Positions 5,540-30,447 of a DNA stretch of 64,000 nucleotides are shown here, one piece after another (positions within the stretch are counted from its first letter, which is position 1; each line of letters begins with the position of its first letter). Source of the stretch: Aureimonas sp. AU4. Its GTDB lineage: Bacteria; Pseudomonadota; Alphaproteobacteria; Rhizobiales; Rhizobiaceae. The notes below the pieces were generated by a model. That model ran no database searches and was not told the DNA's origin. It was given only the letters and a program-made list of their open reading frames with translations. The position numbers were made by a program, and so were the translations under genes. The stretch covers positions 1 to 64,000 of the forward strand of contig NZ_BBWK01000001.1 of NCBI RefSeq assembly GCF_001463765.1. Reading direction: 5' to 3'.

Positions 5540-6087
5540 GAGACCGTCGCCTTCCAGGGCGCCCGCACCACGAGCTCGATGCGCAAGCGCGGATCCGCGC
5601 CCGCTTCCTCGTTCTCGCCGTCCAGCCGCCGCACGTCGAGCCGGGCGAGGGTCATCAGCGGCAGTCCGGTCTCGATGGCGTGAAGAAGCTTCAGAAGGCC
5701 CCCGTTGTCGCCGTCCAGCGTGGCGCGAGCCTCCAGGAAGGCAGCCGCCGTCTCGGCGGTCAACGCGCTCGAGGCGCTTTCGACGATCCGAAACGACGAC
5801 GCCTCGCCCAGGGCGACCAAGCGGCGCTGCAGCTCGGCCTCCGCCAGGCTGCGCGAGGAGCCCTCGATCACCAAGCCGGCCCCGGACTGCGGGGGAGTGG
5901 TGCGGGTCTCTCCGGCCAGCCGCTGGCGAAACCGCTCCAGCTGCGCGTCGGCCAACTCGGTTTGCGAGCGGATATCGGCGGTCGAGGCCGCGTTGCCAAG
6001 CGCCAGCAGGACGAGCACGGGCGGTACGATGACCAGAAGCGTCAGAGCCGTCCATCGGCGAAGAGGCGTGGGGGCGGCGCGGTTCAC
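5536..6087 (-). CDS. gspM: Type II secretion system protein GspM
   Basis: This 183-residue inner-membrane protein has one N-terminal transmembrane helix (ALTLLVIVPPVLVLLALG), a helical linker (DAQLERFRQRLAGE) and a ferredoxin-like periplasmic domain ending in LRIELVVRAPW. This is the layout of the GspM_b family, which binds GspL and stabilises the assembly platform. Its ATG overlaps the gspL stop by 4 bases and its stop overlaps the next gene's GTG, so the genes are translationally coupled. Confidence 0.78.
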   Translation of the reverse strand: MNRAAPTPLRRWTALTLLVIVPPVLVLLALGNAASTADIRSQTELADAQLERFRQRLAGETRTTPPQSGAGLVIEGSSRSLAEAELQRRLVALGEASSFRIVESASSALTAETAAAFLEARATLDGDNGGLLKLLHAIETGLPLMTLARLDVRRLDGENEEAGADPRLRIELVVRAPWKATVS

Positions 6088-7232: not shown

Positions 7233-7242
7233 GGCGTTCGCC

Positions 7243-9012: not shown

Positions 9013-9236
9013 GTTCGAGCTGGGGCGGCCACGCTTCGGGCACCCGATCGGTGCCGCGCCGCTGGCGAGGTGAGGGCGCCCGACCCGCAAAATTTGACGC
9101 ATGCCGAAACCGCGATGCGTTGGCTGGCGTAGCTTATCTCGGTGGGTTGTTGCCGATTGGGTATGGTGAAGGCCTCGCCAAGCGCGCAGGAATGACGTCC
9201 GGTCAGCTTGACGCAAGCTTTGGGAATGGGACGGGC

Positions 9237-11420: not shown

Positions 11421-11992
11421 GCGCGGGCGCGCGCCTTGCGCCGGGCGGCCTTGCGGGTTGGGGCGCAACCACGCTCCTCATCGCCGGCGCGACAGTTCTG
11501 AGCGGGCGCACCGGCTGGATGGCGACGCTGGCGCTGCCGGCCGCGCTCGGGTTTGTGTGCGCCTGGATCGCCTGGGAAGACCTCGCCGAGCTGACGATCC
11601 CCGACGCCGCGCTGGCCGGCATGGTCGGGCTGGCTGCGGTGGACCTCGCCTCGACCGCGCTCTTCCGGTTCGATCCGGCGTCGGCGACAGGCCTGTTCGC
11701 GCTGGACGGGCTCCTGTGCGGGGGTGCCCTTTGGGTGCTGCGCGAGATCTACTTTCGGCGCCGTGGCCATGATGGGATCGGCTTCGGCGACGTGAAGCTG
11801 GCCGTTGCGGGTGGCTGCCTGTGCGGCTTTGGCGGCTTCTCGCTGGCGTTGCTGGCGGCAAGCCTTGCAGGATTGGTCGTAGCCGCCTTGGCCGCGCGTC
11901 GCGGGGCCGGACGATGGGAAGCGAAGATCGCCTTCGGCGCACTGCTGGCACCCGCCCTTTGTGCGGCTTGGCTCCTGGGTGTCGGACGGTGA
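11417..11992 (+). CDS. A24-family prepilin peptidase (short, CpaA-like)
   Basis: This 191-residue multi-helix membrane protein has the two catalytic aspartates of aspartyl prepilin peptidases, D55 in WEDLAELTIPD and D125 in GFGDVKL. It lacks the N-terminal zinc/N-methyltransferase domain of GspO/PilD, so it should cleave the pseudopilin leaders but may not methylate them. The ATG overlaps the gspD stop (ATGA). Its place inside the gsp operon points to processing of GspG, H, I, J and K. Confidence 0.85.
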   Translation: MSAGARLAPGGLAGWGATTLLIAGATVLSGRTGWMATLALPAALGFVCAWIAWEDLAELTIPDAALAGMVGLAAVDLASTALFRFDPASATGLFALDGLLCGGALWVLREIYFRRRGHDGIGFGDVKLAVAGGCLCGFGGFSLALLAASLAGLVVAALAARRGAGRWEAKIAFGALLAPALCAAWLLGVGR

Positions 11993-12047
11993 TGGTGCAG
12001 GCTCGGCTGACGCACGCAGCATGCCGCGGCGGCGGGCTGCACTGACC

Positions 12048-13259
12048 ATGGCGCGCTTCCAATACAAGGCGTTGAACACTGCTGGAAAGCCGACCGACGG
12101 CGTGATGGAGGCCGCCTCTCCCGCGGAGGTCGCGCGCGCCCTCGGCGAGGCAGGCTTCACGCCGATCTCGGCCAAGCCCCTGGGGTCGGGCGACGGGCGG
12201 ACGTGGCGCGAACGGTTGACGCCCGATCCCCGGCCTGAGGAGATCACCGCCTTCACGCTCGACCTCGCGATGCTGTTGGATGGCGGCGTCGCGCTCGACG
12301 AGGCGCTGGTGATCCTGACGCAGATGGAAACGCGGCGCTGGCTAGTGCGGCTCGTGCGCTCGTTGCACGCCGAGATCTCGGGCGGGCGGTCCTTCTCGGC
12401 CGTCCTGGCGGACCACCCCGCGCTGTTCCCGCCCCTCTACGTAAAGATGGTGGAGGTCGCGGAGATGTCGGGACGGCTGGCGAGCGCTCTCGCCAGCATC
12501 GCGAACGAGCGCCAGCGGCGCGAGGCCCTGCGCAAGCGTCTCGTCGGGGCTGTCGCCTATCCCATGTTCCTGGCAGTGGCTGCGATCGGCGTTCTGTTCT
12601 TCGTACTGCTTTACATCATCCCCCAGTTCGAGGGCGCGATCGAGGGCTTCCGCGACCGGATCGACGGCTCCGCCCTGTTCGTGTTCGAGCTCTCGGAGCG
12701 GGTGCGTGCGGTGTCGGGCTTCATCCTGCCGACGCTGATCGGATGTCTTGTGGTCTTCCTCCTCGCCAAGCGGGCGCTTGCCGGGCGCTCGCTCGGCCTA
12801 GAGCTTCTATCGCGGCTTCCCTTCACGCGTCCGCTCGTCGGCTACAGCCTGACGCTCACCTTCTGCCGCACGCTGTCGATCCTTCTGGCCAACGGCGTCG
12901 ACATCTCCACGTCCCTGCGCCTCATTCGCGGCCTGTCGCGCGTGCCCGGTGCCGCGCAGACGATCGACGCCGTGCTCGCCGACGTCCGGCAGGGCCGGCG
13001 CCTGTCCGCCGCGCTCGCGCAGCGCCCGCTTCTGCCCGCGCATGTCGTTCAGATGCTGCGGGTGGGCGAGGAGGCTGGATCCCTTCCCGAAAGCGCGGCG
13101 CGCGTCTCGGTCTTCTACGAGGCCAAGCTCGATACGGCGCTCGCGCGCTTCACCGCCGTGCTCGGACCCGTCCTGATGATGGGGGTCAGCCTTCTGATCG
13201 GCTGGTTGATCATCTCGATCATGAGCGCTCTCATGAGCATCAACGACCTTCTGGTGTGA
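12048..13259 (+). CDS. gspF: Type II secretion inner-membrane platform protein GspF
   Basis: The 403-residue protein starts MARFQYKALN, the typical GspF opening. It carries two T2SSF repeats (AFTLDLAMLLDGGVALDEAL and YSLTLTFCRTLSILLANGVD) and three transmembrane helices (MFLAVAAIGVLFFVLLYIIP; LIGCLVVFLLA; LMMGVSLLIGWLIISIMSAL). It anchors the pseudopilus assembly platform and contacts GspE and GspL. ATG 12048 is chosen from family length. The stop overlaps the gspG GTG by 4 bases. Confidence 0.9.
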   Translation: MARFQYKALNTAGKPTDGVMEAASPAEVARALGEAGFTPISAKPLGSGDGRTWRERLTPDPRPEEITAFTLDLAMLLDGGVALDEALVILTQMETRRWLVRLVRSLHAEISGGRSFSAVLADHPALFPPLYVKMVEVAEMSGRLASALASIANERQRREALRKRLVGAVAYPMFLAVAAIGVLFFVLLYIIPQFEGAIEGFRDRIDGSALFVFELSERVRAVSGFILPTLIGCLVVFLLAKRALAGRSLGLELLSRLPFTRPLVGYSLTLTFCRTLSILLANGVDISTSLRLIRGLSRVPGAAQTIDAVLADVRQGRRLSAALAQRPLLPAHVVQMLRVGEEAGSLPESAARVSVFYEAKLDTALARFTAVLGPVLMMGVSLLIGWLIISIMSALMSINDLLV

Positions 13260-13723
13260 GTCTGCCGCAGATGCCGCTAATCCGTCCCGCCGACCCGTCC
13301 CGCCGCACCCAGCGCTCCGCCAACGCCGGCTTCACGCTCGTCGAGCTTCTGGTTGTTCTGGTGATCCTGGGTCTCGTGATGGGCCTGGTGGGCCCGCGCG
13401 TCCTGAACTACCTGACCAGTTCGCGCGAGCGCGCCGCCAGCCTTCAGATCTCCTCGTTCAAGTCGGCGATGGATCTCTTCTTCCTAGACACGGGGCGGTA
13501 TCCCACAGCCAGCGAGGGGCTGGGCGCCCTGGTGACGCGGCCCGCCTCGCTTCCCGCCTGGAACGGGCCGTACCTGCAGCAGTCCGGCGTCCCGGCCGAC
13601 CCGTGGGGAAATCCGTACCGCTACGTTCCTTCCAGTCAGGGGGCGCCCTACCGCATCATTTCCAACGGTGCCGATGGGCAGGAGGGCGGTAGCGGATCGG
13701 ATGCCGATATCACGAGCAACTAG
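13256..13723 (+). CDS. gspG: Major pseudopilin GspG
   Basis: The protein is 155 residues with a prepilin leader cleaved at G25|F26 (AG|FTLVELLVVLVILG) and Glu at mature position 5. The C-terminal part matches major pseudopilins: LFFLDTGRYPTASEGLGAL, DPWGNPYRYV and a short acidic calcium-binding tail (GSDADITS). It forms the pseudopilus shaft. The GTG at 13256 overlaps the gspF stop; ATG 13271 is an alternative start. Confidence 0.92.
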   Translation: MSLPQMPLIRPADPSRRTQRSANAGFTLVELLVVLVILGLVMGLVGPRVLNYLTSSRERAASLQISSFKSAMDLFFLDTGRYPTASEGLGALVTRPASLPAWNGPYLQQSGVPADPWGNPYRYVPSSQGAPYRIISNGADGQEGGSGSDADITSN

Positions 13724-14171
13724 CCGTCCCGGGAACACTCGACCGGCGCGCGACCGGCGTGGCGGCTTCGCGTTGATCGAACTCATGCTGGCGCTCGCGA
13801 TCATCTCGCTGCTGGCGGCCCTGGCGCTTCCCTACATGCGCTTCGGGACGGGACCGGGTCTCCAGCGCTACGAGGGCCGGCGTGTGGCCGCGCTTCTGCG
13901 CGCGGACCGCAACGAGGCGTTGCGCAGCGGCCGCACCGTCGTCACGCTGATCGATCTGTCCGGCCGGCGCGTGGTGTCGGGCTCGAGCGGCGGCACGATC
14001 GACGTGTCGGGTGCCCTGCAGCTTTCGAGCCGTCCCGCCGGGCTGAACCGTGTCCTGTTCGCGCCGGACGGTCGCTCGAGCGGGGGCGACATCCTCCTGG
14101 GCGCGAAGGGGCGAAGCCTCGCCGTACGCGTCAGCGACCAGACCGCGGCGGTGCGGATCGAGGAGTTCTAG
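13701..14171 (+). CDS. gspH: Minor pseudopilin GspH
   Basis: The 156-residue pseudopilin has a leader processed at G22|F23 (GG|FALIELMLALAIISLLAA) with Glu at mature position 5. The globular part has the GspH pattern (RRVAALLRADRNEALRSGRT, then VRIEEF at the end). Minor pseudopilins prime pseudopilus assembly. The start overlaps gspG by 23 bases, and the next gene begins 2 bases after the stop. Confidence 0.85.
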   Translation: MPISRATSRPGNTRPARDRRGGFALIELMLALAIISLLAALALPYMRFGTGPGLQRYEGRRVAALLRADRNEALRSGRTVVTLIDLSGRRVVSGSSGGTIDVSGALQLSSRPAGLNRVLFAPDGRSSGGDILLGAKGRSLAVRVSDQTAAVRIEEF

Positions 14172-14173
14172 GC

Positions 14174-14620
14174 GTGCCGCGCGTCGTTCACCCTCCGATC
14201 CGCTCCGTCCGCATTCTCGCCCGCCTGCGCGGACGCGACGGGTTCACCCTGATCGAGGCCCTGGTGGCATTTGTCGTGCTGGCGCTCGTCATGGTGGCGA
14301 TGCAGCGGCTGGCGGTCGGCAATGTCGACGGCGCGCTGCGGGCGGCCGAGCGCGTGGAGGCGACCCGCGTGGCCGAGACGCTCCTGTCGAGCCGTGCGCT
14401 CGGCGCACGCGGGGAGCCGGCCGAGGGGCGGCTCGAGAACCACGGCTGGAGCGTGCGCTTCGAGCCCGTTCCGCTGGCGGCCGGCACCAGCGGCGACATC
14501 GGCGCACGGGTCTTTGAGCCCATGCGCATGATCGTCACGGTTCAGGCGGGGGAGAGGCGCGGCGGCGTCCTCACGGCCGAGGCGATCCGCCTCGTGCGCA
14601 TCGACCGGGCCGAGCGGTGA
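14174..14620 (+). CDS. gspI: Minor pseudopilin GspI
   Basis: This 148-residue protein starts at GTG 14174. The prepilin site is G23|F24 (DG|FTLIEALVAFVVLALVMV) with Glu at mature position 5, and a short beta-rich domain contains GWSVRFEPVP, as in GspI. GspI, J and K form the tip of the pseudopilus. The stop overlaps the GTG of gspJ (GTGA at 14617-14620), another coupled junction in this operon. Confidence 0.85.
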   Translation: MPRVVHPPIRSVRILARLRGRDGFTLIEALVAFVVLALVMVAMQRLAVGNVDGALRAAERVEATRVAETLLSSRALGARGEPAEGRLENHGWSVRFEPVPLAAGTSGDIGARVFEPMRMIVTVQAGERRGGVLTAEAIRLVRIDRAER

Positions 14621-15372
14621 TGGGACCGCAGCGTCGCACGCCGTCTCGCCATCGCGGACGGGACGGCTTTCTTCTCGCCGAGGCGCTGGTGACCATGGCG
14701 ATCGGCGCCTTTCTGCTGGTCGCGATGGTGTCGCTCCTTCACCTCGCGGTGCGGGCCGACGCGCGCACGCAGGATCTGGCCAGCCGGGTCGAGGCGCAGA
14801 CCCGCGCGTTGGAGGCGATCGGGCGGGACCTGCGTCCGGCCCTGCGTGTGCGCTGGAGCGGTCCGGATGCGCCCTTCGTCTTTGCGGGCGGGCCCGACAC
14901 CATGTGGTTCGCCGGGCGCGACGAGACGAGCGGCGAGGTCCGCCTGGTGACCCTTCACGCCGAACCGGGGCGCGTCCTACGCACGAGTGCGGCGCTTCCC
15001 TCGATCGCGACCAGCCCCGACGATCTCGCGGGGGGAAGCCGCAGTGAGATCGAAACCGGCGGCGACCTTGTTCGCTTCAGCTACTTCCAGGCCCTGCCCG
15101 ATGGTGAGGACGTCCTGCTCGACACCTGGACCTCGCCGCTCGCGATGCCGAGCGCCGTGCGCATCGCGATCCTCGATATCCGAACCGGGGAACCGCGCGC
15201 ATCCCTGCGCATCCCGCTCATGATCGACGCTGAGCCCGGATGCGCCGCTCCGAGCCGTGCGGCCTGCTCCTACCGGGAAGCCGGCGATGCCGACGTCGTG
15301 GCACCGACCGATCTTCCGCCCGAGGCTGTGGACGCGGCCGATCCGCTGGGCTGGGCACGCTATGCCCGGTGA
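14617..15372 (+). CDS. gspJ: Minor pseudopilin GspJ
   Basis: The 251-residue protein has a prepilin leader cleaved at G17|F18 (DG|FLLAEALVTMAIGAFLLV), Glu at mature position 5, then an ALEAIGRDLRPAL segment and a long beta domain, as in GspJ. It starts at GTG 14617 or ATG 14620. The C-terminus contains two close Cys residues (GCAAPSRAACS) that could form a disulfide. It overlaps gspK by 11 bases. Confidence 0.82.
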   Translation: MMGPQRRTPSRHRGRDGFLLAEALVTMAIGAFLLVAMVSLLHLAVRADARTQDLASRVEAQTRALEAIGRDLRPALRVRWSGPDAPFVFAGGPDTMWFAGRDETSGEVRLVTLHAEPGRVLRTSAALPSIATSPDDLAGGSRSEIETGGDLVRFSYFQALPDGEDVLLDTWTSPLAMPSAVRIAILDIRTGEPRASLRIPLMIDAEPGCAAPSRAACSYREAGDADVVAPTDLPPEAVDAADPLGWARYAR

Positions 15373-16195
15373 TCCGCGCGCCCGAATGGGGGACCGGAGC
15401 GGCTTCGTGCTGGTCGCCGTCCTGTCGGTCACAGCGCTTCTCGCGCTTCTGACGGGCGGCGCCGTGCTTCTGTCGCGGGGGGCAGTGGAAACCGCGAGCG
15501 TCGGGGACGAAACGCTGCGGGCGCAGGCGCTGCTTCGCTCGGGCGTCGAGCTTGCCGGGCACCAGCTCTTCGTCCTGCGCGTCGATCCCGCGACACTGAA
15601 CGGACAGCAGCTGCGCCTCGACACGGGGACGGTGACGATCTTCGCGGCCTCCGAGGCGGGCCGGGTGGACTTGAACGGCGCGGACGCGGTGCTCCTCGCG
15701 GCGGCCTATCGCGCCTCCGGGCTGAGCACCCTGTCGCCAACAGACTTCGCGGAGCGGGTCGTCGATCGGCGGGGAGGGGGCGGCGGGACGTCGTTCCGCC
15801 TCGTTGCGGACCTCGGCGAGGTTCCCGGCGTTTCGTCCGGCGACGTGGCGGCGCTCGCTCCCTTCCTGACCGTCTACAACCCCGCCGGCCGGATCGACCC
15901 GATGTTCGCCCCGATCGCGCTTCTCCAGGCGCTGCCGGGCGTTCCCGAAGGGATCGGCCCGTCCCTGACGGATGCGCGCGGCCGAGGCGGTCTCGACCGG
16001 CTGTTTCACCTGCGCGCGATCTTCCGAGGCCTCGAGTCCTATCTCGTTCTGGGCGAGGCGCTGCGCGTGTTCAGGGTACGGGTCGAGGCGCAGGGAGCGG
16101 CAGGGGGGCGCGTGACCCGGGTGGAAGCCGTGCTGATCGCCTCGGTCGTCTCCGACCGACCCTTCCAGATCACCGATTGGCGTGCGCTCCCGTGA
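15362..16195 (+). CDS. gspK: Minor pseudopilin GspK
   Basis: At 277 residues this is the largest pseudopilin. The leader ends SG|FVLVAVLSVTALLALL, and mature position 5 is Ala, not Glu. Lack of Glu5 is characteristic of GspK, which caps the pseudopilus. The mature domain includes EAGRVDLNGADAVLL and FLTVYNPAGRIDPMFA, helix-hairpin-type segments seen in GspK. It is the last gene of the rightward gsp operon. ATG 15362 fits the leader length. Confidence 0.85.
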   Translation: MPGDPRARMGDRSGFVLVAVLSVTALLALLTGGAVLLSRGAVETASVGDETLRAQALLRSGVELAGHQLFVLRVDPATLNGQQLRLDTGTVTIFAASEAGRVDLNGADAVLLAAAYRASGLSTLSPTDFAERVVDRRGGGGGTSFRLVADLGEVPGVSSGDVAALAPFLTVYNPAGRIDPMFAPIALLQALPGVPEGIGPSLTDARGRGGLDRLFHLRAIFRGLESYLVLGEALRVFRVRVEAQGAAGGRVTRVEAVLIASVVSDRPFQITDWRALP

Positions 16196-18806: not shown

Positions 18807-19421
18807 ATGCGTTTGCCTGCCCGAACCGCCCTCCTGCTTCTCGGATCGCTGGCCCTCTCCACCTCGCTCGCCGCCGCGCAGGACGCGCAGCCGATGCGGG
18901 TGCGCGGCACGGTCGCGTCGGTCGACGGCAACACGCTATCGGTCACCTCGCGCGAGGGGCCGGTGGTCCGGATCGCAATGGCGCCCAACGTCGGCCTGCG
19001 CGGCGTGAAGGCGGCGTCCGCCAGCGACATCAAGCCGGGCGACTACGTGGGAGCGGCGACGCTGCCCGGCGAGAACGGCACGGCCGGCGCGCTGGAGGTG
19101 CTGATCTTCCCGGCCGCGATGAAGGGCGCCAACGAGGGCAGCTTCCCCTGGGACCTCCAGCCGGGCTCGACCATGACCAACGCGACGGTGTCGAACGCGG
19201 TGGAAAGCGTGTCGGGCCGCCAGCTGACCCTGACCTATCCGACCGGATCGCAACAGATCACCTTGCCCGACGGCGTGCCGGTCGTGACCTTCGCCGAGGC
19301 TTCGGCCGCCGACCTCAAGGCGGGCGCCCCGGTCTTCGTGCCGGCGACGAAGGCGGCCGACGGGTCGCTCACCACGGCCTTCGTGGTGGTCGGCAACCAG
19401 GGCATCGTTCCGCCTATGTAA
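18807..19421 (+). CDS. Exported DUF5666-like OB-fold protein
   Basis: The 204-residue protein has a Sec signal peptide (LLLLGSLALSTSLAAAQ). Two short beta-barrel-like repeats follow: VRGTVASVDGNTLSVTSREG paired with IKPGDYVGAA, then VESVSGRQLTLTYPTG paired with DLKAGAPVFV. This two-part layout matches DUF5666-type periplasmic proteins of unknown function. It stands alone between the glycosyltransferase and the mobile element, and is the last chromosomal gene before the element's left boundary. Confidence 0.78.
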   Translation: MRLPARTALLLLGSLALSTSLAAAQDAQPMRVRGTVASVDGNTLSVTSREGPVVRIAMAPNVGLRGVKAASASDIKPGDYVGAATLPGENGTAGALEVLIFPAAMKGANEGSFPWDLQPGSTMTNATVSNAVESVSGRQLTLTYPTGSQQITLPDGVPVVTFAEASAADLKAGAPVFVPATKAADGSLTTAFVVVGNQGIVPPM

Positions 19422-19510
19422 CGAAAAATTTTCTTGCTTGTTAAAAGTAAAATCATTCCGAGGACCTCTTGTGTACCCGAAGGGTTGTGGAAAGAACATG
19501 ATGAAATGAA

Positions 19511-19798
19511 TCAGACACTAAGGCCTAAAGAGACGAGGTAGCGTTCGACGACTGGGGAGTCGCGAGAGCCTACACGTAGGAGTTCGAGGGCTTCGCAGTC
19601 GCCGTATCGCTTAGCCTCAAGTGCGGTAGCTGAGATCTCCCATGGTGCTCCAGGTGCGCTCCGTCGTCCGATACCGTCCTGCTTGCACCAACGTCTGATC
19701 GTCTTTTCGTTCTTTCCAGTCCGATAGGCCGCCTCTTTCAGGCTGATAATCTCGTCCTGACGCATCAACACTGGTCGTACGGAGGGCGCAGAGCTCAT
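19511..19798 (-). CDS. Small MerR/excisionase-type HTH protein
   Basis: A 95-residue protein with one helix-turn-helix: ISLKEAAYRTGKNEKTIRRW followed by a wing-like PWEISATALEAKRYGD. This is the HTH_17/excisionase pattern, so it may regulate excision or act as a DNA-bending factor. It is the leftmost gene of the island, separated from the primase by the repeat cluster. Start at ATG 19798 is a choice; 19846 and 19765 are also in frame. It could be a remnant from the phage-like ancestor. Confidence 0.6.
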   Translation of the reverse strand: MSSAPSVRPVLMRQDEIISLKEAAYRTGKNEKTIRRWCKQDGIGRRSAPGAPWEISATALEAKRYGDCEALELLRVGSRDSPVVERYLVSLGLSV

Positions 19799-20035
19799 CG
19801 GACCAGTCCTTGCATCCCAGTGTTTGCGGGCCAACGAGACGCACAACCAACATTATTCGATATCGCGAGAACTGATTTTTCGATCACGAAATAAAATCTG
19901 CGAATGAGACCCCTGTCGGTGTCCACCCCCAAGACTTCGCTGACTTCCGATGCCCCCTCCCGTCGGGGCCGATCGGGATCCGACTTGGCCCCCGAGCGGC
20001 AACGACCGCTGGACATGTAGGGGATCGCTGCTTGT

Positions 20036-20303
20036 GCCACCTGTGACGTCACCTGTGACGCGCGAAGCTCTGCGCCGTAACGGTTTGGAGCAACTGGCAC
20101 AGGTGGCACAGGTGTCTTTTGAAGTTCAGGGAAGAATGAGATTGCTAGAAGGATGGGCTGCGCAGCATGCGCACTACGGTCGTGTACACTCGTGTATGGG
20201 CGATGCAGATTTTGCCTATGCCACCTATGCCACCTGTGCAGCCCTTGCGTCGCAAGGGTTGCAACGAAATTGGCACGTGTGACTGTCACGGGTGCCACCT
20301 GTG
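20036..20303. repeat. Iteron-like GCCACCTGTG repeat cluster, possible replication origin
   Basis: Exact GCCACCTGTG copies lie at 20036, 20229 and 20294 (plus) and 20098-20107 (minus). One-mismatch copies lie at 20048, 20220 (plus) and 20107-20116 (minus). Several are arranged as overlapping pairs with 9- or 12-base periods. A 17-base palindrome (CCCTTGCG-T-CGCAAGGG, 20242-20258) and GTGAC-T-GTCAC (20279-20289) lie among them. The cluster begins about 10 bases past the primase stop, a typical place for the origin of a replicating island. Apart from these repeats the 19799-20312 stretch has no convincing gene. Confidence 0.6.
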
Positions 20304-20312
20304 CCAACCCGG

Positions 20313-22847
20313 TCATAGGCCGAACGCCTTCCTAAGGTCTGGAAGCGACGGGAGGCGATAGCACCATGCGCGTCCGCCATCGCCCGTGCGATGTTGCGAT
20401 GCGAGTGCCTTGGCTTCTGTCTTGGCCAAGGTGACGAGACGCTTCCCAACTCGGACGTCGGTGATCGGCGGTTCGCGACGCTCCTTGCTCCAGCGTTCGT
20501 AGTCTCTGTAGAGGCGAGCGCGCTCTATGAGTACGGGGCCATCCTCCCACGACACGCCGTTTTCGCCTGCATACTGGCCGCCCGTCGCGAGCAGCTCGAA
20601 CCAGAAGCGGTCGAAGCCTTCCAGCGACTCGACCTGCACCTCGGCCAAGGCGTCCGTCGCCGGGCAATTGCGCACGTTGAAGCCGGCCAGGTCGACAGCC
20701 GCGAGATACTTTCGGAGAGCGGCCGGCCCGACGCCGCATCGTTCACGCTCGATGGCGCCGAAGTAAGCCTCGTCTTTCCGGTGAGCGTCGGACACGTTCA
20801 GCACGAAGAAGCGCCGTGCTTCGGCCGATGCGTTCACCGGCTTGACCTCGTTCGATGTGATCCACAAACGCAAGAAGGACTTCTGGCCGGTATCGACGTC
20901 GACACCCTTGCCTTCCTCCGTATGGTTCGGGTTCGTGATAAGCGACTTCAGGACGCCTTCTTTGTCCTTAGCCTTCCCGATCCAGCCAAGCTCCTCGACA
21001 TGCAGGAAGAGCCGGTTCGTCAGGTGCGAGTTGAAAGCACCGGTGATATGCTTGTCCTGCGCCGTGTTCACGTACAGCTTCGGCATCATCGCTTCGACGT
21101 AGTAGCCGACCGTGTCCTTGCCGGTGCCTTCGAGACCCTTCAGCACGACCGCAACCCCGGGCTTCTCGCCTGGTCTCTGAATGAGATGCGCGAACCACCG
21201 GATGAGATAGGCGAAGTGTTCTTCGTCGCCGCTGCAAACGATATTCCGCATATGCGCTAGGATCAGGGCGCACTCTCGGCCGCTCGCGTCGACATGGTCA
21301 TCGCCGTCCAGGGGCGGGAAGCCCCGCCAGCGATTGTAGACACCGGGGGGTGTGCCATTCGGATCAAAGTCCCAACCCTTCGGATAGACGCGGCGATCCG
21401 GCGAGCGGATCCAAGCGTCGTACCGCGAGAGGACCTGCTTGCCTTCCAGAAGCCGAACCTCTCGGTCAGCGTACCGCAGGATCAGGTCTTCCTTCCCGGT
21501 CTTGTAGGTCGAGCCATCGTCTTCCTCAGAGATCGGGAACGCCTTGCCCCGGTGCATGATGATGGCGTGACGTTCGTTCATCTCCGCGACGTAGTAGGGC
21601 ACGTCTTTCGACGGTTTGCCGAGGGTCGTCACCTCTTCCAGACCATCGAAGATGCCCCCACCATCTACCGGTGAGACGGGCTCGGGATCGGACGCTACGT
21701 CCTCAATCAGCCACTGCTGAACGGTCGGAATCACATGCGGAGCGAGCTTTTTGAGTAGCCACATCAGCGTCCCGGCCGACAGGTCCTCGGGCGGGTAAAG
21801 TTCGACGTGCTTCCAAGAATCCTCGACCTCAGCGGGGTCGTGCTTGCCGGCCTTTGCAGACCATAGCATGAGCGCCTCGAGGCCATCGTCGCTGTTGTGG
21901 GAAGCGTCCCACAGCGTCATCTGAACGTGCCGATAGGCGTCCCACGGAACGAGCCTTTCGTTATTCGGCAGACCTTCGGCGAAGGCGAGCAAGGCTTCCC
22001 GTGGCCAAGCACGTTTCGTCTTGAACGGCCGATTGCCCTTGCCCTCGCGTTTGCGTCCGCAGAGGGTCGTCGGGTCCTTTCCGTCTTCAAGACAAGCGGC
22101 CAGCAAGCGGTCGCTCACCTCATGCGGAACGATCACAACATCAGGATTGCTCTCGATGATCCGGCACAACCGCGGCGCATTCTTTGTATGGACCGATCCC
22201 GGCCAGCGGTAGGGATGGCACAAGGCGGCCCCGCTGCCGTCAGCGCCGACAAGGTCGACGGCGCGCCGACGCAGCTGACGAAGCATGAAGAGTTCCTCAG
22301 GGCTGCGCGCTGAGTGCGCCAACCGCCAATGAACGTGCTTCTTCCGCTCATCGTTGGAAGTGACCCCCCCGCTTTCGACAACCATCCACGGATCGCCGAG
22401 CACCTCGCGCAATCGGGCAAGCGAAGCGTCGGGGTTCTCGTCCAGATCAACGCTGAGCGCCGAGCAGTAGGCGACGGACTCTTCGGTGGCCCTGAGCTTG
22501 CTGCCATCGGCCGGCTTGCGAAACAGTACGAGCGGCGGACTAAAGACGCGCGCCGACAGATCAATTCGGCGGGCCGCGTCCTGCGCATGGGTCGTGAGAC
22601 GGCGAACAGCAGCATCAATGTCAGCCGGATCATACTCGATCCAATCCGGATCGGAGTACCGGCGAGGATCGTCCGGCGGCAGTTTCTTTGGGTGCTGCGG
22701 GAAATGGCGGGAGCCGATGAAGCCCTCATTCGCCCTGGCATCATGGAAGAAGCCCACGACGCATGTTCGGATAAGGGACGAGTCAACCGCCACTTCCGTC
22801 TTGGAATTCCTATCCGTCAGCGCTACAACATTGGCAGGCAAGTGCAT
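20313..22847 (-). CDS. PrimPol-type primase with SF3/D5-like helicase
   Basis: The 844-residue replication protein has an archaeo-eukaryotic primase-like N-half: D134/D136 in SVDLDENPD, HVHW at 171-174 and RWPGSVHTK at 214-222. The C-half is a helicase of the phage primase/DUF5906 kind, with Walker A GLEGTGKDT at 571-579, an acidic FLHVEELG and sensor-like LWITSNEVKP. It should start replication of the island. ATG 22847 has AGGAG directly against it, which is poor spacing. The frame is open upstream to a CTG at 22933 that overlaps the previous stop and could be the true start. Confidence 0.85.
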   Translation of the reverse strand: MHLPANVVALTDRNSKTEVAVDSSLIRTCVVGFFHDARANEGFIGSRHFPQHPKKLPPDDPRRYSDPDWIEYDPADIDAAVRRLTTHAQDAARRIDLSARVFSPPLVLFRKPADGSKLRATEESVAYCSALSVDLDENPDASLARLREVLGDPWMVVESGGVTSNDERKKHVHWRLAHSARSPEELFMLRQLRRRAVDLVGADGSGAALCHPYRWPGSVHTKNAPRLCRIIESNPDVVIVPHEVSDRLLAACLEDGKDPTTLCGRKREGKGNRPFKTKRAWPREALLAFAEGLPNNERLVPWDAYRHVQMTLWDASHNSDDGLEALMLWSAKAGKHDPAEVEDSWKHVELYPPEDLSAGTLMWLLKKLAPHVIPTVQQWLIEDVASDPEPVSPVDGGGIFDGLEEVTTLGKPSKDVPYYVAEMNERHAIIMHRGKAFPISEEDDGSTYKTGKEDLILRYADREVRLLEGKQVLSRYDAWIRSPDRRVYPKGWDFDPNGTPPGVYNRWRGFPPLDGDDHVDASGRECALILAHMRNIVCSGDEEHFAYLIRWFAHLIQRPGEKPGVAVVLKGLEGTGKDTVGYYVEAMMPKLYVNTAQDKHITGAFNSHLTNRLFLHVEELGWIGKAKDKEGVLKSLITNPNHTEEGKGVDVDTGQKSFLRLWITSNEVKPVNASAEARRFFVLNVSDAHRKDEAYFGAIERERCGVGPAALRKYLAAVDLAGFNVRNCPATDALAEVQVESLEGFDRFWFELLATGGQYAGENGVSWEDGPVLIERARLYRDYERWSKERREPPITDVRVGKRLVTLAKTEAKALASQHRTGDGGRAWCYRLPSLPDLRKAFGL

Positions 22848-22930
22848 CTCCTGGACCGGGTGGCGACCCGGCTCTTGATTGGTTGGAGGCGAAGGGGTCG
22901 GCGTGGTGGCCGCTCCTTCGCTGACAGCTC

Positions 22931-23206
22931 TCAGGCATGATCCAGTTCGGGCGTTGGATCGAACGCCTCATCAAACAGCTTCCGAGCCCGCTTGCCGATT
23001 GCTTCATTCTGGGTGTTCACGAAGATGAACTCGAGATCGTCGGCTGCCCGACAGATGCGGACGTAATCTCGGACTCGGCGCGCATCCTGCAGGTCGTGAT
23101 CGACCATGCTGAGCAGAAGCGCCTCGGCGTCGCTTGTCGGTAGGTTCGCGACGACGGCCCGGATGTCCGGTACGGCGTCAGTCGGCCGCACATTGAGCGT
23201 GGTCAT
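22931..23206 (-). CDS. Island hypothetical protein (91 aa)
   Basis: Acidic 91-residue protein (many Asp and Glu: NLPTSDAEALLLSMVDHDLQ, RAADDLEFIFVNTQNEAIGK) predicted mostly helical, with no family I recognise. Its ATG overlaps the stop of the 88-aa gene (ATGA at 23203-23206), and it directly precedes the primase, so it is probably co-translated with the replication gene. Confidence 0.6.
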   Translation of the reverse strand: MTTLNVRPTDAVPDIRAVVANLPTSDAEALLLSMVDHDLQDARRVRDYVRICRAADDLEFIFVNTQNEAIGKRARKLFDEAFDPTPELDHA

Positions 23207-23469
23207 GCTCCATCCTTTCTCGCGATCCGACCCCGGACCGGCTTGTTGGCTTTGGCGATGCGTCTGATGCGGGGTGTGGCGCCCTCGCGGGCGAGGCGCG
23301 CGATGACGTTGCGAACCTGAGCCGGGATCTTCCAGCCGGCTTGCTGGCAGCGGCTGAGTGAGCGCAATTCGCGCCAGAGAATGATCGTGTCCCGTTCGAC
23401 CCGCTTGGCGGTCTTGGTGCGCAGGTACTTCGCGGAATGCTCATACTGACGGCGCGGTGAGGTCGGCAT
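23203..23469 (-). CDS. Island hypothetical basic protein (88 aa)
   Basis: Strongly basic 88-residue protein (YEHSAKYLRTKTAKRVERDT, later KANKPVRGRIARK) with a helical core RNVIARLAREGATPR, consistent with nucleic-acid binding but without a known motif. ATG 23469 is preferred over 23565 because it leaves a modest overlap with the 71-aa gene upstream. The stop overlaps the next ATG by 4 bases. Confidence 0.55.
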   Translation of the reverse strand: MPTSPRRQYEHSAKYLRTKTAKRVERDTIILWRELRSLSRCQQAGWKIPAQVRNVIARLAREGATPRIRRIAKANKPVRGRIARKDGA

Positions 23470-23656
23470 CGATGCCCCCGTGTCCTTCGACATGACGACG
23501 TGCGAGCTCATCGATCCGTGCTTCGTCCTCGTCGTCACGCTTCTGCCTGTCGGCGAGGTAGGCACCGGCGAACCGGTCCCAAGTGCGCCGCTCGGCGGCG
23601 AGCCGCCGGTGGTGCATGGCCTGCCGGCGGACGGCTTCGAAGGGACTGTTCCTCAT
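23441..23656 (-). CDS. Island hypothetical charged protein (71 aa)
   Basis: Short helical, highly charged protein (QAMHHRRLAAERRTWDRFAG, then ADRQKRDDEDEARIDELARR). No family is recognised. It starts at ATG 23656, overlapping the stop of the 113-aa gene (ATGA), and its end overlaps the following gene, so it belongs to the same coupled unit. Confidence 0.5.
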   Translation of the reverse strand: MRNSPFEAVRRQAMHHRRLAAERRTWDRFAGAYLADRQKRDDEDEARIDELARRHVEGHGGIDADLTAPSV

Positions 23657-23994
23657 CGCACCGGCTCCTTCTGCAGCAGGTCGAAGAACTTCGGCGTGGC
23701 GAGCACCGCACGGGCACCATGCGCAAAGGTCCCGCCGCCGATCTGGTCAGCGCCGACCTCATCGAGAATGGTGTCGAACGTCTCGCCCGGCTTGATCGAG
23801 TCAACGACCAGCTGGATCAGCGCCCGACACGTCGCGCCGAGAAGGTCACGGCGCTGGCCGGCATCGAGGTTCGGGACCGGAGCCTCGTTCGGCCAGCCTA
23901 CGAAGGCGCGGAACGCTTCTTCGAGATCGCGCTGGCAGAAGGTCCAGTCCGCAGCGTAGAGCAGCGGCAAGATGCTCACGGTCTCGGTGCTCAA
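23653..23994 (-). CDS. Island hypothetical protein (113 aa), TTG start
   Basis: Protein of 113 residues (LPLLYAADWTFCQRDLEEAF, FDTILDEVGADQIGGGTF) with no known domain. The frame continues upstream as a shadow of the AlpA-like gene. The sensible start is TTG at 23994, which overlaps that gene's TGA (TTGA), giving MSTETVSILPLLY. This continues the pattern of 4-base overlaps in the island operon. Confidence 0.6.
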   Translation of the reverse strand: MSTETVSILPLLYAADWTFCQRDLEEAFRAFVGWPNEAPVPNLDAGQRRDLLGATCRALIQLVVDSIKPGETFDTILDEVGADQIGGGTFAHGARAVLATPKFFDLLQKEPVR

Positions 23995-24230
23995 GCTGCC
24001 CGCCCAATGTTGAAAGGCAAGCCAAGCTTTTCGGCGAGCGGCGCGACGGGCACGAGAATGCGGCCGCCGACGCGGATTGTCGGCAGGTCGCCGCGGCGGG
24101 CGGCTTCGTACGCCGCGCTGCGACCAAGGCCGAAGAACACGTGCCCTGCAGTGATAATGTCTGTCGTTGCCAAACCGAGAACGGCTTCGACGTCCGCTCG
24201 CGTGGCAGCTGGGGTGGACTTCTTCGCCAT
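23991..24230 (-). CDS. AlpA/excisionase-like HTH protein
   Basis: The 79-residue protein contains the HTH_17 excisionase pattern: GHVFFGLGRSAAYEAARRGD, then LPTIRVGGRILVPVAPLAEK, typical of AlpA/Xis-type DNA-binding proteins that control excision or early genes. It is first in the leftward island operon and divergent from the ribbon-helix-helix gene, with a TTTCGTAA operator between them. It is the more likely of the two island HTH proteins to be the excisionase. Confidence 0.75.
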   Translation of the reverse strand: MAKKSTPAATRADVEAVLGLATTDIITAGHVFFGLGRSAAYEAARRGDLPTIRVGGRILVPVAPLAEKLGLPFNIGRAA

Positions 24231-24239
24231 CGTTGGCTC

Positions 24240-24304
24240 TTTCGTAAAAAGGTGTTACGAAATGATAGGTAGCCTTCGGGCTTCCATCTGACAAGCGTTT
24301 CGTA
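24240..24304. promoter_or_regulatory. TTTCGTAA operator in the divergent island promoter region
   Basis: TTTCGTAA at 24240-24247 and TTACGAAA at 24255-24262 form an inverted repeat with a 7-base spacer. A third half-site TTTCGTA lies at 24298-24304. They fall in the 100-base AT-rich gap between the leftward HTH gene and the rightward ribbon-helix-helix/integrase genes, a classical place for a switch operator. The ribbon-helix-helix protein is the likely binder. Confidence 0.6.
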
Positions 24305-24332
24305 TTACTTTTTTACTAAAACTGGATCCTGG

Positions 24333-24860
24333 ATGATCGGCAGACCTAAATTATCGGACGGTGCGACGAAGCCGATCCAGCTCAAGATTGGTGAAGAGGA
24401 GTTCGCCGACCTCGAGGAGTGGCGCTTCGCGAACAGAATGGAGTCGCGCTCTGAGGCGATACGACGTTTGATTCAACTGGGTTTGCGCGCCGATCCGCTA
24501 GTTCCACTGACGTTTAGCCGAATACTGGAGGCATTGGAAACAGCTCAAAAACTGCAGGTCCAGATGCAGGGTTTCGACGCAAAAAAGCTGTCTAAAGAAC
24601 AATACTTTGCAAGCGTCGCTACAGCGGTCGGTGAAATGTATGGCGACGTTTTGGACGCGATACTTTCCGCCGCGGCTCAATCAATGGCTTTGGTCAATGA
24701 GGTGGCCGCGATACATCAGAACTCAGATATTAAGGACGCAGTCGCGAAAGCGGACGAGATAAAACAGCATTACCTGAATGAGCTCGAGAAGCTGCGTGGC
24801 GATATCGGCGCGGAAAAAGCGCGACGGCGTTTCGTACTCGATCGGGAGGACGAAGAATGA
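24333..24860 (+). CDS. Ribbon-helix-helix (CopG-like) regulator with coiled-coil tail
   Basis: The first ~50 residues have the ribbon-helix-helix pattern: KPIQLKIGEEEFADLEEW, then ESRSEAIRRLIQLGLRADP. The remaining 120 residues are helical and heptad-like (HYLNELEKLRGDIGAEKA) and may oligomerise. The DNA here is noticeably more AT-rich than flanking genes, a sign of foreign origin. It overlaps the integrase ATG by 4 bases, so regulator and integrase are coupled. Its role is probably control of the divergent promoters. Confidence 0.75.
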   Translation: MIGRPKLSDGATKPIQLKIGEEEFADLEEWRFANRMESRSEAIRRLIQLGLRADPLVPLTFSRILEALETAQKLQVQMQGFDAKKLSKEQYFASVATAVGEMYGDVLDAILSAAAQSMALVNEVAAIHQNSDIKDAVAKADEIKQHYLNELEKLRGDIGAEKARRRFVLDREDEE

Positions 24861-26020
24861 AGGGCTCTATCAAAGAGCGCTCGCCCGGCACGTGGGCGAT
24901 CATCCTCGACAATCCGGAGCGGGATCCGGTCACCGGTAAGCGCCGGCGCAAGTGGCACACGTTCCACGGCACGAAGCGCGAGGCTCAGGTCGAGTGCGCC
25001 CGTCTCGTCACGATGATCAAGCACGGCGGGTACACCGAGCCGACGAAGACGACGGTGGCGCAGTTCCTAGATCGCTGGTTGACGCACGAGAAGGCCAGCG
25101 TCGCGCCGAAGACGCACGAGCGCTACACCGAGATCGCCCGCAAGAACATCATGCCGCTGATCGGCTCGACGACGCTGGCGAAGCTGAAGGTCGAGGCGAT
25201 CGATGCGGCCTGGACGAAGGCACTGGCGAGCGGCCGACGGAACGGGAAGGGCGGTCTCTCGCCCCGCACCGTCCACCATATGCGCCGCGTCCTGATCAAG
25301 GCGCTCAACCAGGCCGTGGTCTGGGAGATGATCCCGAAGAACCCGGCAACGCTCTCCAAGCCGCCGAAGGTCGAACGGAAGGCGATGTCGGCCTACGGGT
25401 CCGACACGACCGCGCAGCTCCTTGAGGCCGTGCGCGGAACGCGGATCTATGTGCCGGTGCTGCTGGCCGTCATGTGCGGCCTGCGCCGCGGCGAGGTGGT
25501 GGCGCTGCGCTGGAAGGACGTCGAGCTGGGCGACAACCAGCGGCGCCTGTCGGTGGTGGCGACGGCCGAGCAGACGAAGACGGGTGTCCGCCAGAAGGAG
25601 ACGAAGACGGGCAGGGGGCGCGTGGTGGATCTCAGCGCCAGTATGACGGCCGAGCTATTGCGGCATCGGGCCGCGCAAGCGGAGGAGCAGCTGCGCCTCG
25701 GCGTGCGCGTGACGCCCGACAGCTTCGTGGTCGCTCAGGTGGACGGCCAGCCGCTCCAGCCGAACTCACTGACGCACGAGTGGGTGCGGATCCTGGCGAA
25801 GTCCGATCTGCCCCGCATCCGCTTCCACGACCTTCGGCATAGCCACGCGACGCAGATGCTTGCGGCTGGCGTCCACCCGAAGGTCGCTCAGGAACGGCTC
25901 GGCCATTCGACGATCGCGATCACGCTCGACATCTACAGCCACGTCATGCCGGGCATGGGCGCCAGCGCAGCCGAGTTGGTTGACGCTGCGGTCCGGCAGG
26001 CGGTAAAGCCGAAGGCGTAG
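24857..26020 (+). CDS. Tyrosine recombinase / phage integrase
   Basis: The 387-residue protein has an arm-binding AP2-like N-domain (GSIKERSPGTWAII), a SAM-like core domain (TVAQFLDRWLTHEKASVAPK) and the catalytic domain. Catalytic residues are visible as Arg in MCGLRRGEVVALRWKDVEL, HDLRHSHATQML (H-x-x-R), and LGHSTIAITLDIYSHVMPGM with His and nucleophile Tyr. It integrates and excises the island. It reads toward tRNA-Ser, whose 5' end lies 81 bases beyond the stop. Confidence 0.93.
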   Translation: MKGSIKERSPGTWAIILDNPERDPVTGKRRRKWHTFHGTKREAQVECARLVTMIKHGGYTEPTKTTVAQFLDRWLTHEKASVAPKTHERYTEIARKNIMPLIGSTTLAKLKVEAIDAAWTKALASGRRNGKGGLSPRTVHHMRRVLIKALNQAVVWEMIPKNPATLSKPPKVERKAMSAYGSDTTAQLLEAVRGTRIYVPVLLAVMCGLRRGEVVALRWKDVELGDNQRRLSVVATAEQTKTGVRQKETKTGRGRVVDLSASMTAELLRHRAAQAEEQLRLGVRVTPDSFVVAQVDGQPLQPNSLTHEWVRILAKSDLPRIRFHDLRHSHATQMLAAGVHPKVAQERLGHSTIAITLDIYSHVMPGMGASAAELVDAAVRQAVKPKA

Positions 26021-26025
26021 AGCCG

Positions 26026-26046
26026 TTCGGTAGCAATTCGGTAGCA
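26026..26046. repeat. Tandem TTCGGTAGCA repeat after the integrase
   Basis: Two perfect TTCGGTAGCA copies at 26026-26035 and 26037-26046 with an 11-base period start 5 bases past the integrase stop. Position and spacing suggest recombinase arm- or core-binding sites near the attachment site, but no second copy was found at the left end of the island. Confidence 0.4.
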
Positions 26047-26100
26047 GCGGACCAAATGAAGAGCGCTGCGAAGCCAGATTTGCCAACGATTACAAGGCTT

Positions 26101-26190
26101 GGATGGGTGGCCGAGTGGTTTAAGGCAGCGGTCTTGAAAACCGCCGTGCGGGGAACCGTACCGTGAGTTCGAATCTCACCCCATCCGCCA
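26101..26190 (+). tRNA. tRNA-Ser (UGA anticodon)
   Basis: GGATGGG at 26101-26107 pairs with CCCATCC at 26180-26186, followed by discriminator G and an encoded CCA. The anticodon stem is GCGGT/ACCGC with loop CT-TGA-AA, reading UCA codons. A long variable arm and the T arm (GTGAG-TTCGAAT-CTCAC) make this a normal class II serine tRNA of 90 bases. It flanks the island with its 5' end toward the integrase. Confidence 0.97.
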
Positions 26191-29277: not shown

Positions 29278-30447
29278 ATGGGGGTACGGATGTGGCTGAT
29301 CGCGGGATCACGTCGCCGTTGGGTTGCCCGCACGGCACTGATCGCGCTGAGCGCCACGGTTCTGGCGGGATGCCAGTCCCGGTCCCAGTCGTCTTCGACG
29401 CATGGCGATTTGGCGCCCGAGGACGATGCACCAATCTTCAGCTCATCCATCTTCGGCGTGAAGGCAAGTCCGCGTGTAACCCGTTTGAAGCGTGTGCCGA
29501 AGGGCGGGGGCCGTGATCAGACTGGCCAGCCGTACAAGGTTCGCGGCAAATGGTATTATCCAAAGGAAGAGCCCGGCTACGTCAAGACGGGTGAGGCGTC
29601 CTGGTACGGGTCGAACTTCCACGGTCGGCTGACGGCCAACGGTGAAATCTACGACATGTACCACCTGTCGGCGGCGCACCCGACCTTTCCGCTTCCATCC
29701 TACGCTCGCGTCACGAACCGCAAGACCGGTGCGTCAGTGATGGTCCGAGTGAACGATCGCGGGCCCTACATGCATGACCGCGTCATGGATGTTTCGTCGA
29801 AGGCGGCCGAAATGCTTGGCTTCCAACGTGACGGTATCGCGGATGTGAAGGTTGAGTATGTCGGAAGGGCCCCCCTCGAGGGTGACGACACGAAGCTTCT
29901 GATGGCATCGTACCGCCCAGGTGATGCTCGGCCGATCGATGACGGTCTGCCAACCGGCGTGATGATTGCCTCGAATCGTCCCGCAAACCCTGCGCCCTTG
30001 CTCACGGCTGCGGCCTTCTCTCCCCCGAAGCCGGCCGTCGCGCGTTCGACGGCACCCCGTCGCGGAGACGCGATGTCGGTCGAAGACCTGATCAAGGCTT
30101 ACGATGCTCCCGCCGGCGGCGCGATGGCGCCGATACCGACATCTCGCGGGCTGGCTCTGTCCTACGCTCCGCAAACCCCGACCCGAGGGGCGAAGGCCGC
30201 GCTCGGCACCCTACTGAACGACACGGTAGCGCTCTCGAATGCCGGTTCGGAGCGCATTGAGGTCGGAGTGATCGACCGCAACCTGCGCGAAAAAATCTCC
30301 GTTCTCGCAATGACGGCCGGCCTTGAGTTGTCCGACGAGGGTGATGGTGCTGTCGCGATCGCGCTTCCGCCTGGCTCGAATGGCGACGACCTGCTGGCCC
30401 ATGTGTGGAAGGCCGGCGCACGCGAAGCCTTCATCCCGCGCGATTGA
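29278..30447 (+). CDS. rlpA: Septal ring lytic transglycosylase / RlpA-like lipoprotein
   Basis: The 389-residue protein has a lipoprotein signal ending ATVLAGC (Cys32) when started at ATG 29278. The double-psi beta-barrel of RlpA follows: TGEASWYGSNFHGRLTANGE, HPTFPLPSYARVTN, VNDRGPYMHDRVMDVS. RlpA cleaves glycan strands lacking stem peptides, mostly at the septum. The C-terminal ~100 residues (LREKISVLAMTAGLEL to the end) may be a weak SPOR-like domain. It sits just upstream of a DacA-like gene, another cell-wall function. Confidence 0.88.
   Translation: MGVRMWLIAGSRRRWVARTALIALSATVLAGCQSRSQSSSTHGDLAPEDDAPIFSSSIFGVKASPRVTRLKRVPKGGGRDQTGQPYKVRGKWYYPKEEPGYVKTGEASWYGSNFHGRLTANGEIYDMYHLSAAHPTFPLPSYARVTNRKTGASVMVRVNDRGPYMHDRVMDVSSKAAEMLGFQRDGIADVKVEYVGRAPLEGDDTKLLMASYRPGDARPIDDGLPTGVMIASNRPANPAPLLTAAAFSPPKPAVARSTAPRRGDAMSVEDLIKAYDAPAGGAMAPIPTSRGLALSYAPQTPTRGAKAALGTLLNDTVALSNAGSERIEVGVIDRNLREKISVLAMTAGLELSDEGDGAVAIALPPGSNGDDLLAHVWKAGAREAFIPRD

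Follow-up and report, generated by a model that had tools for sequence, protein, structure and literature searches.

A candidate phage satellite with a tail tape measure gene at tRNA-Ser(TGA) of Aureimonas sp. AU4

Is the cluster of phage-like genes beside a tRNA-Ser gene of the alphaproteobacterium Aureimonas sp. AU4 a complete minimal satellite, or half of a larger element that brings virion parts of its own? The cluster lies in the first 64,000 nucleotides (nt) of contig NZ_BBWK01000001.1 (assembly GCF_001463765.1), called here the window; its start is base 1 of the contig (C1). A sequence-only reading had described a compact satellite-type island at 19440–26060 (approximately 6.6 kb) with an integrase, regulators and a primase–helicase and with no virion genes. 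The evidence below leads us to a different outline, to which we give a probability of about 0.55: an integrative, phage-satellite-like element at tRNA-Ser(TGA), of which the stretch holds the attR half and which would supply a tail part of its own and borrow a head. The satellite-like nature of the element is likely on its gene content; its compactness and the absence of virion genes were not upheld.

Borders and the second contig

The borders of the 6.6-kb island had to be redrawn at both ends. A tRNA-Ser(TGA) gene lies at 26101–26190 (+), downstream of the integrase, and the right border falls inside it; the left core is on another contig of the same genome, C75. The ends are marked by the following features (relatives are cited by genome or element number, G).

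26101–26139 (+): attR core, the first 39 nt of tRNA-Ser(TGA); second copy at C75:8537–8575
26026–26049 (no strand): two GGTAGCA repeats adjoining attR; the motif also occurs in the attL arms of C75, G397, G402 and G398
19422–19510 (no strand): junction; similarity to G402 stops at 19510, at the end of a helix–turn–helix (HTH) gene, and a DUF5666 gene ends at 19421

The repeats at 26026–26049 are probably integrase arm sites. The arm adjoining the C75 core aligns with the attL arms of G397, G402 and G398; given the second core and this shared arm with GGTAGCA-type repeats, the window therefore represents attR and C75 attL. Core copies are 38–39/39 identical to the AU4 tRNA across 13 genome loci. 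No second core was found in window positions 1–26000, where the longest match to the tRNA region is 11 nt, and of 15 first-look integrase candidates in the genome 4 were scored, with one match reaching E ≤ 1e-60. In G401 the site seems empty, with the tRNA-Ser present without integrase-side sequence; its downstream flank resembles window 29413–29976 and its upstream flank a stretch of C75, a weak link because that stretch lies approximately 11 kb from attL rather than 0.3 kb.

From attL to the contig end, C75 encodes eight called proteins inside the core. One is a tail tape measure protein (TMP; phrog_16823, E = 1.5e-120), of which 925 aa can be read, open to the contig end—925 codons without a stop, and the other called element genes are likewise open—so the description of the element as free of virion genes does not hold. 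Four genes follow that of the TMP. The other proteins are one of 154 aa, then those of 208, 239, 176 and 260 aa, and a pair that adjoins attL and matches PADLOC defence models:

C75 7326–8087 (L036), convergent with the beta gene: cll/sce7726 protein, 253 aa (PADLOC cll, 1.1e-53; NCBIfam sce7726, 1.4e-28)
C75 6268–7329 (L036), convergent with the cll gene: beta protein (PF14350, 4.3e-45; PADLOC beta, 9.3e-82; PD-Lambda-2_C, 1.5e-8)

The window half and the C75 half most likely form one element, judged by gene order in G402, whose integrase is the sister of the AU4 integrase on the tree described below. On a single G402 contig, an HTH gene 80% identical to that at 19511–19765 is followed by tail genes: a 315-nt gap (holding a small ribbon–helix–helix (RHH)-like open reading frame (ORF), read by eye), a TMP gene, then genes for related 260-, 175- and 207-aa proteins. 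This order, HTH gene, TMP and related proteins on one contig, therefore makes the window and C75 appear as halves of one element. The two TMPs share approximately 34% identity over the last 600 aligned columns; the 229-aa (G402) and 239-aa (C75) proteins at matching positions show no mutual match. As probes for the unread start of the AU4 TMP, sixty residues of the G402 TMP found nothing in the AU4 genome, and 244 residues found the start of C75, a longer, different TMP on contig C87 and one chance-level match. Searches of three C75 proteins against phages gave no match, one weak match and no match, respectively. The element measures at least 15.2 kb without the type II secretion segment described below and at least 34.7 kb as assembled with it.

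A stand-alone minimal satellite of approximately 6.6 kb, the C75 core having been left by another element, strikes us as highly improbable. Its gene set resembles that of minimal satellites such as the PICMIs, and the relative G447 is only 11.5 kb; but such an element is not favoured because the window has no left core and the partner core is on C75, where, in addition, the genes match those that follow the HTH gene in G402.

Left of 19510 the window holds the DUF5666 gene, a glycosyltransferase gene and a type II secretion system (T2SS) cluster (4913–16195). This segment was joined to the element by insertion or by misassembly. A repeat-driven misassembly is disfavoured, as no repeat at the junction explains a misjoin: the matches of window 19390–19640 elsewhere in the genome amount to 30 nt within a DUF5666 paralogue and some stretches of chance length, and those of C75:1–400 are all short. 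Relatives of the DUF5666 gene have different neighbours, and in G401 the T2SS cluster and the tRNA-Ser gene are on separate contigs.

We regard it as very unlikely that the whole is a genomic island of 34.7 kb or more that exists for its cargo, the T2SS cluster, and has a phage-derived integration module. Consistent with such an island, the contig parts inside the cores sum to 34.7 kb as assembled, the two cores of G402 lie 58.3 kb apart on a single contig and its attL part holds host-like genes, the GC fraction of the T2SS segment (0.69) exceeds those of the element part (0.62) and of the downstream sequence (0.63), and a close GspD occurs in 1 of 20 other genus genomes (G401, 81%; matches at E ≤ 1e-20 are found in 7 of 21 genus genomes, AU4 included). 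Against it, every complete genome element except G402 (12 of 13) measures 15.7–31.0 kb, the window junction adjoins the HTH gene whereas the host-like genes of G402 lie in the attL part, and C75 and C1 are not joined. The G402 stretch itself (contig C45 12401–70825; L039, L057, L058, L040) has its TMP-containing element at the integrase end; among the host-like genes is one for a DnaE2-like protein, named by eye.

Gene content and payloads of the relatives

The window half carries, from the tRNA inwards:

24857–26020 (+): tyrosine integrase (Pfam Phage_integrase, E = 6.9e-26)
24333–24860 (+): RHH-like regulator overlapping the integrase start (phrog_4738 transcriptional repressor, 2.3e-10; Pfam RHH_1 below cut-off)
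23991–24230 (−): AlpA-like HTH regulator, divergent from the RHH gene (Pfam HTH_17, 3e-4, below cut-off)
23653–23979 (−): 108-aa protein; G402 homologue 54% identical, same position; no family at E ≤ 0.01
23441–23656 (−): 71-aa ORF overlapping its neighbour at 23203–23511; no family match
23203–23511 (−): 102-aa protein; no family at E ≤ 0.01
22931–23206 (−): 91-aa protein; no family match; G402 homologue 45% identical over 58 aa
20313–22847 (−): primase–helicase (PriCT_2, 3.7e-6; DUF5906, 9.9e-14)
20035–20303 (both strands): iteron-like cluster, five copies of TGCCACCTRTG, just 3' of the primase gene
19511–19765 (−): HTH protein, excisionase- or regulator-like (phrog_2655 excisionase, 1.2e-5)

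Profiles and ORFs thus bear out the sequence-only calls of the integrase, RHH regulator, AlpA-like HTH protein, four small ORFs, primase–helicase and second HTH protein. The RHH/AlpA pair diverges between 24230 and 24333; the AlpA-like protein aligned with the same-position gene, and an RHH-like gene was found, in 19/19 relatives examined. The helicase part of the primase–helicase matches PDB primase 6k9e/6k9c (E = 1.8e-8), and the PADLOC mad1 profile matches the second HTH protein across 28 aa (E = 3.1e-5). The repeat cluster, too, goes beyond chance: all five matches of TGCCACCTRTG in the window fall at 20035–20303 with none elsewhere at ≤1 mismatch, and shuffled windows, with one mismatch allowed, contained 1.09 on average and five anywhere in 2/100 shuffles. 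The cluster is a possible replication origin; at the same place, G446 carries AAACCCCT five times. Capsid-redirecting or defence roles, suggested earlier for the four small proteins, gained no support from profiles (at E ≤ 0.01 the four matched nothing in Pfam, PHROGs or PADLOC, nor did the three compared with NCBIfam), and the defence-like genes are at the opposite end of the element.

An integrase search found the type in 20 of 394 family genomes (E ≤ 1e-60, AU4 included), and 17 of the 19 other family loci were fetched with flanks. Together with two same-genus loci and the window these make 20 sequences, all of which have the integrase, RHH and AlpA genes; the tRNA adjoining the integrase gene is Ser(TGA) in 17, Sec in 2 and Ser(CGA) in 1. 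The two at tRNA-Sec rather than tRNA-Ser are G070 and G016 (L096, L097), and G016 uses a different 39-nt core there. Left cores were found in 13 of 19 genome loci (12 elements of 15.7–31.0 kb, and G402). In a scan of genome contigs, identity to the integrase exceeded 44% in only two among the 80 matches listed.

IMG/VR contributed 52 integrase loci, with 47 records searched for the capsid family PF05065 and 33 fetched. Cores, accepted at 28/39 matches to any known core and found at 36–39, were present at both ends in 4 records and on the left only in 8, of which 2 are copies of genome elements; the other 6 were counted on the left core alone, as records that end just after the integrase. Two duplicates were dropped, G407 because it repeats G397 and G438 because it repeats G153. 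Loci for which a left core was not recovered were left uncounted (G372, G073, G070, G344, G134, G127 and 21 of the 33 fetched records), as was G398, whose element is split over two contigs. The count then stands at 23 non-redundant, core-bearing elements.

Ten of the 23 carry genes for a capsid, a portal, a terminase and a TMP (G397, G148, G153, G334, G276, G054, G016, G409, G435 and G432). In 9 of the 23, no capsid or portal was found: six have a TMP, two a tail fibre and one neither. Their contents are:

G358: TMP, tail chaperone (phrog_313), terminase, HEPN_AbiU2 protein
G290: TMP
G083: TMP, baseplate hub (phrog_177); integrase 39% identical
G402: TMP and host-like genes
G446: 870-aa primase, TMP (weak, 1.2e-5), hub by our own hidden Markov model (HMM)
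G448: terminase, head protease, TMP, tail protein
G280: tail fibre; no TMP seen
G011: terminase by our own HMM, tail fibre; no TMP seen
G447: terminase; 11.5 kb

Different payloads thus accompany one integrase–RHH–AlpA head. The typing of these nine rests on partial scans: PHROGs covered 18/28 proteins of G446, 19/29 of G290, 16/33 of G083, 15/32 of G358, 4/32 of G280, 4/22 of G448, 2/26 of G011, 1/14 of G447 and 1/59 of G402, and the rest was typed with HMMs built from head-bearing elements (gene calls from a simple in-house caller) and, for G446–G448, also with PF05065, which matched 23 of the 47 IMG/VR records but none of these three. Within this coverage, a further round on 51 proteins of G446, G290, G083 and G358 gave no capsid, portal or large terminase; it did give small terminases, with phrog_57 matched in two elements and phrog_141 in one, and a neck/tail-completion, a tail and a virion structural protein. 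A TMP with no capsid or portal found therefore recurs in G358, G290, G083, G402, G446 and G448, and six of the nine head-less members have a long one (698–1126 aa). The HEPN_AbiU2 protein of G358 (L083 11319–12113, E = 4.6e-29) lies within its TMP- and terminase-containing element, and the fibre gene of G280 belongs to a three-gene cassette (L084 7373–9485) in an element in which neither TMP nor capsid was found.

In the AU4 element itself, PHROGs recognized no capsid or portal among the 17 called proteins. No firm terminase or lysis gene was seen in the parts of the element outside the unread gap between C75 and the window; the only lysis candidate is one holin-like match (E = 0.065). The sequence-only reading had named membership of a larger prophage or integrative and conjugative element as the finding that would speak against a satellite. 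The stretch does belong to a larger phage-like element, one in which no capsid or portal was found; no conjugation gene turned up in the Pfam results for its proteins, although no search was aimed at such genes.

A complete prophage split by the draft assembly, with its head genes in the unread gap or on other contigs, is in our judgement quite unlikely. C75 ends within the TMP gene, the gap is unread, and heads are present in 10 of the 23 elements with a core. However, the head genes of head-bearing relatives are found on one operon, flanked by the small genes and the TMP gene or located beyond the latter; the sister G402 has none between its HTH and TMP genes on one contig; and the only PF05065 capsid found in the AU4 genome belongs to a head–tail cluster on contig C54 (43162–57306; L336, L337), which we take from its gene order to be gene transfer agent-like.

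We placed the integrases on a tree of 50 sequences (47 different; G083 left out). The head-less state, on nine rows including AU4, needs six changes, at least five of them forced by supported branches, and head-bearing rows need nine changes; the head-less label is weakly clustered (24/500 shuffles as low). Five of the nine rows of the prophage group were labelled by size alone. To us the tree suggests that payloads were exchanged or lost repeatedly behind a single integrase–RHH–AlpA head, although loss by decay would also be expected to give repeated changes.

Such decay is the core of another explanation, which we consider unlikely: a siphophage at tRNA-Ser may have lost its head genes and been broken up, no longer working as a unit. 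The integrase, AlpA and RHH genes are common to head-bearing and 34–42-kb elements, the AU4 element is broken at 19422–19510, and coding density is somewhat lower in eight head-less (0.73–0.91) than in ten head-bearing members (0.86–0.94). Yet the called AU4 genes are open, the TMP codons included, and the head-less members lie on separate branches, mostly retain a long TMP and, G402 excepted, are similar to one another in size (11–23 kb).

The satellite reading is supported because the integrase, the divergent RHH/AlpA pair, the element's own primase–helicase with iterons and the core-bounded relatives all point to it. Several observations weigh against it. Four elements of prophage size (G412, G414, G426 and G431; 33.7–41.8 kb; untyped by profiles) share the integrase type, the integrase–RHH–AlpA head and the site core; we judged them prophage-like from size and gene lengths. 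In the window the HTH gene is joined to the T2SS segment, and no repeat there accounts for a misjoin. Sixty-one residues of the 260-aa C75 protein match a terminase large subunit profile (E = 1.8e-7), while for its G358 relative there was no match. Neither a tail chaperone nor a hub was recognized in the AU4 element, G402 has no comparable iterons (no 8-mer three times at that place), and head genes are conceivable between C75 and 19510 because that stretch and the first approximately 260 TMP residues are unread. By eye, the gene lengths of G412, G426 and G431 suggest podovirus-like prophages.

Known satellites and possible helpers

The closest parallel lies in the PLEs (phage-inducible chromosomal island-like elements) of Vibrio cholerae (PLE11, PLE1 and PLE4). 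PLE11 makes chimeric tails, for which it has a TMP, a chaperone and a baseplate hub of its own, and it uses the capsid of its helper; the TMP is incorporated into particles, and a helper phage serves for transfer. Satellite-encoded TMPs were shown for Vibrio PLEs in 2026; according to the authors, no satellite family was known to make such tails before the PLEs, and tmp genes are predicted in PLE-like elements and a sampling of cf-PICIs (PMC12987554). The AU4 element likewise encodes a TMP and may likewise use a helper capsid, and among its relatives a chaperone is found in G358 and hubs in G083 and G446. It differs in host class and helper, its TMP is known by sequence only, and no chaperone or hub was recognized.

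Capsid-forming phage-inducible chromosomal islands (cf-PICIs) are defined by their own capsid and packaging genes. The ten head-bearing relatives resemble them (capsid, portal, terminase, AlpA and integrase genes in 15.7–31 kb) but carry a TMP too, often with a major tail protein, and the AU4 element differs in having, among its 17 proteins, no capsid or portal and one weak terminase match, with the gap unread. Phage-inducible chromosomal islands (PICIs) of Gram-negative bacteria are described as having no structural or lytic genes, att sites never occupied by prophages, divergent regulators beside the integrase, then a replication module and origin, a size of approximately 15 kb, and induction, packaging and interference that depend on a phage (PMC6092414). 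The AU4 element has the divergent RHH/AlpA pair beside its integrase, the primase–helicase and the iteron-like cluster with its putative origin role, and it would have a PICI-like size if C75 and the window are contiguous. It departs from PICIs in its structural gene, the C75 TMP, and in a site also used by the prophage-size G412, G414 and G426 (40–42 kb) and G431 (34 kb); another report lists a prophage of 41.8 kb at tRNA-Ser(TGA) (PMC5537653). The AU4 element also shares its primase–helicase, nearby iterons and AlpA-like regulator with a further class. P4-like satellites have a primase–helicase near iterons and an AlpA/Vis-like regulator; their morphogenesis genes were unseen in the PHROG results for the 17 proteins, in which no gene-by-gene search was made.

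Searches for element genes elsewhere gave little. No match in 264 phage or 9 plasmid records covers 80% of the primase, and the primase, TMP and 108-aa protein had no relative in IMG/VR. An alignment of three primases (AU4, G280 and G446) used as query found three loci, the best (40% identical) on a 49-kb viral contig, in 22 kb of which none of the other query genes was found. Among the literature matches listed (titles and abstract openings, with preprints and most subscription journals outside the search), none described this family of elements. Most likely the AU4 element and its relatives are satellite-like, and some of them would bring a tail part and borrow the capsid, as Vibrio PLEs do.

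A second TMP, of 1743 aa, is encoded on AU4 contig C87 (L333, L334) in a tail-gene cluster with fibre genes; it is 42% identical to the element TMP over 414 residues. Three C87 genes, one for a tail fibre, are colinear with the G280 fibre cassette (50, 33 and 51% identity; 104/171 aa aligned in the third pair). TMPs of 109-kb Rhizobium phages share 57% identity with residues 628–772 of the element TMP and 52% with part of the C87 TMP. If the helper TMP were of the longer C87 type, element particles would be expected to have shorter tails.

Proposed mechanism and meaning

The satellite reading suggests the following course. When a helper phage grows, AlpA would activate the leftward operon. The integrase would excise the element, possibly aided by the second HTH protein as excisionase, and the primase–helicase would replicate it from the iterons. 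The element TMP would then enter a tail otherwise made by the helper, and element DNA would be carried off in a chimeric particle whose head is borrowed. Outside this machinery would stand the T2SS segment left of 19510, as an insertion or an assembly error.

A wider reading, offered tentatively, is that one integrase–RHH–AlpA head at tRNA-Ser serves a class of satellites, each of which swaps in a virion fragment that replaces the helper's. The fragments would be a ruler (AU4, G290 and G402), a ruler and hub (G083 and G446), a ruler, chaperone and terminase (G358), tail fibres (G280 and G011), or a head and ruler. If so, satellites in general would rely on chimeric particles, and the choice of the cell that a particle enters could fall to members with fibres.

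The locus also illustrates how a draft contig can make half an element resemble a minimal satellite. If an alphaproteobacterial family with varied virion fragments on a shared chassis does exist, supplying tail parts would be widespread among satellites, and its members would offer natural comparisons—ruler alone, ruler with hub, fibre alone—with the prediction that the tail length of the particle follows the TMP of the element.

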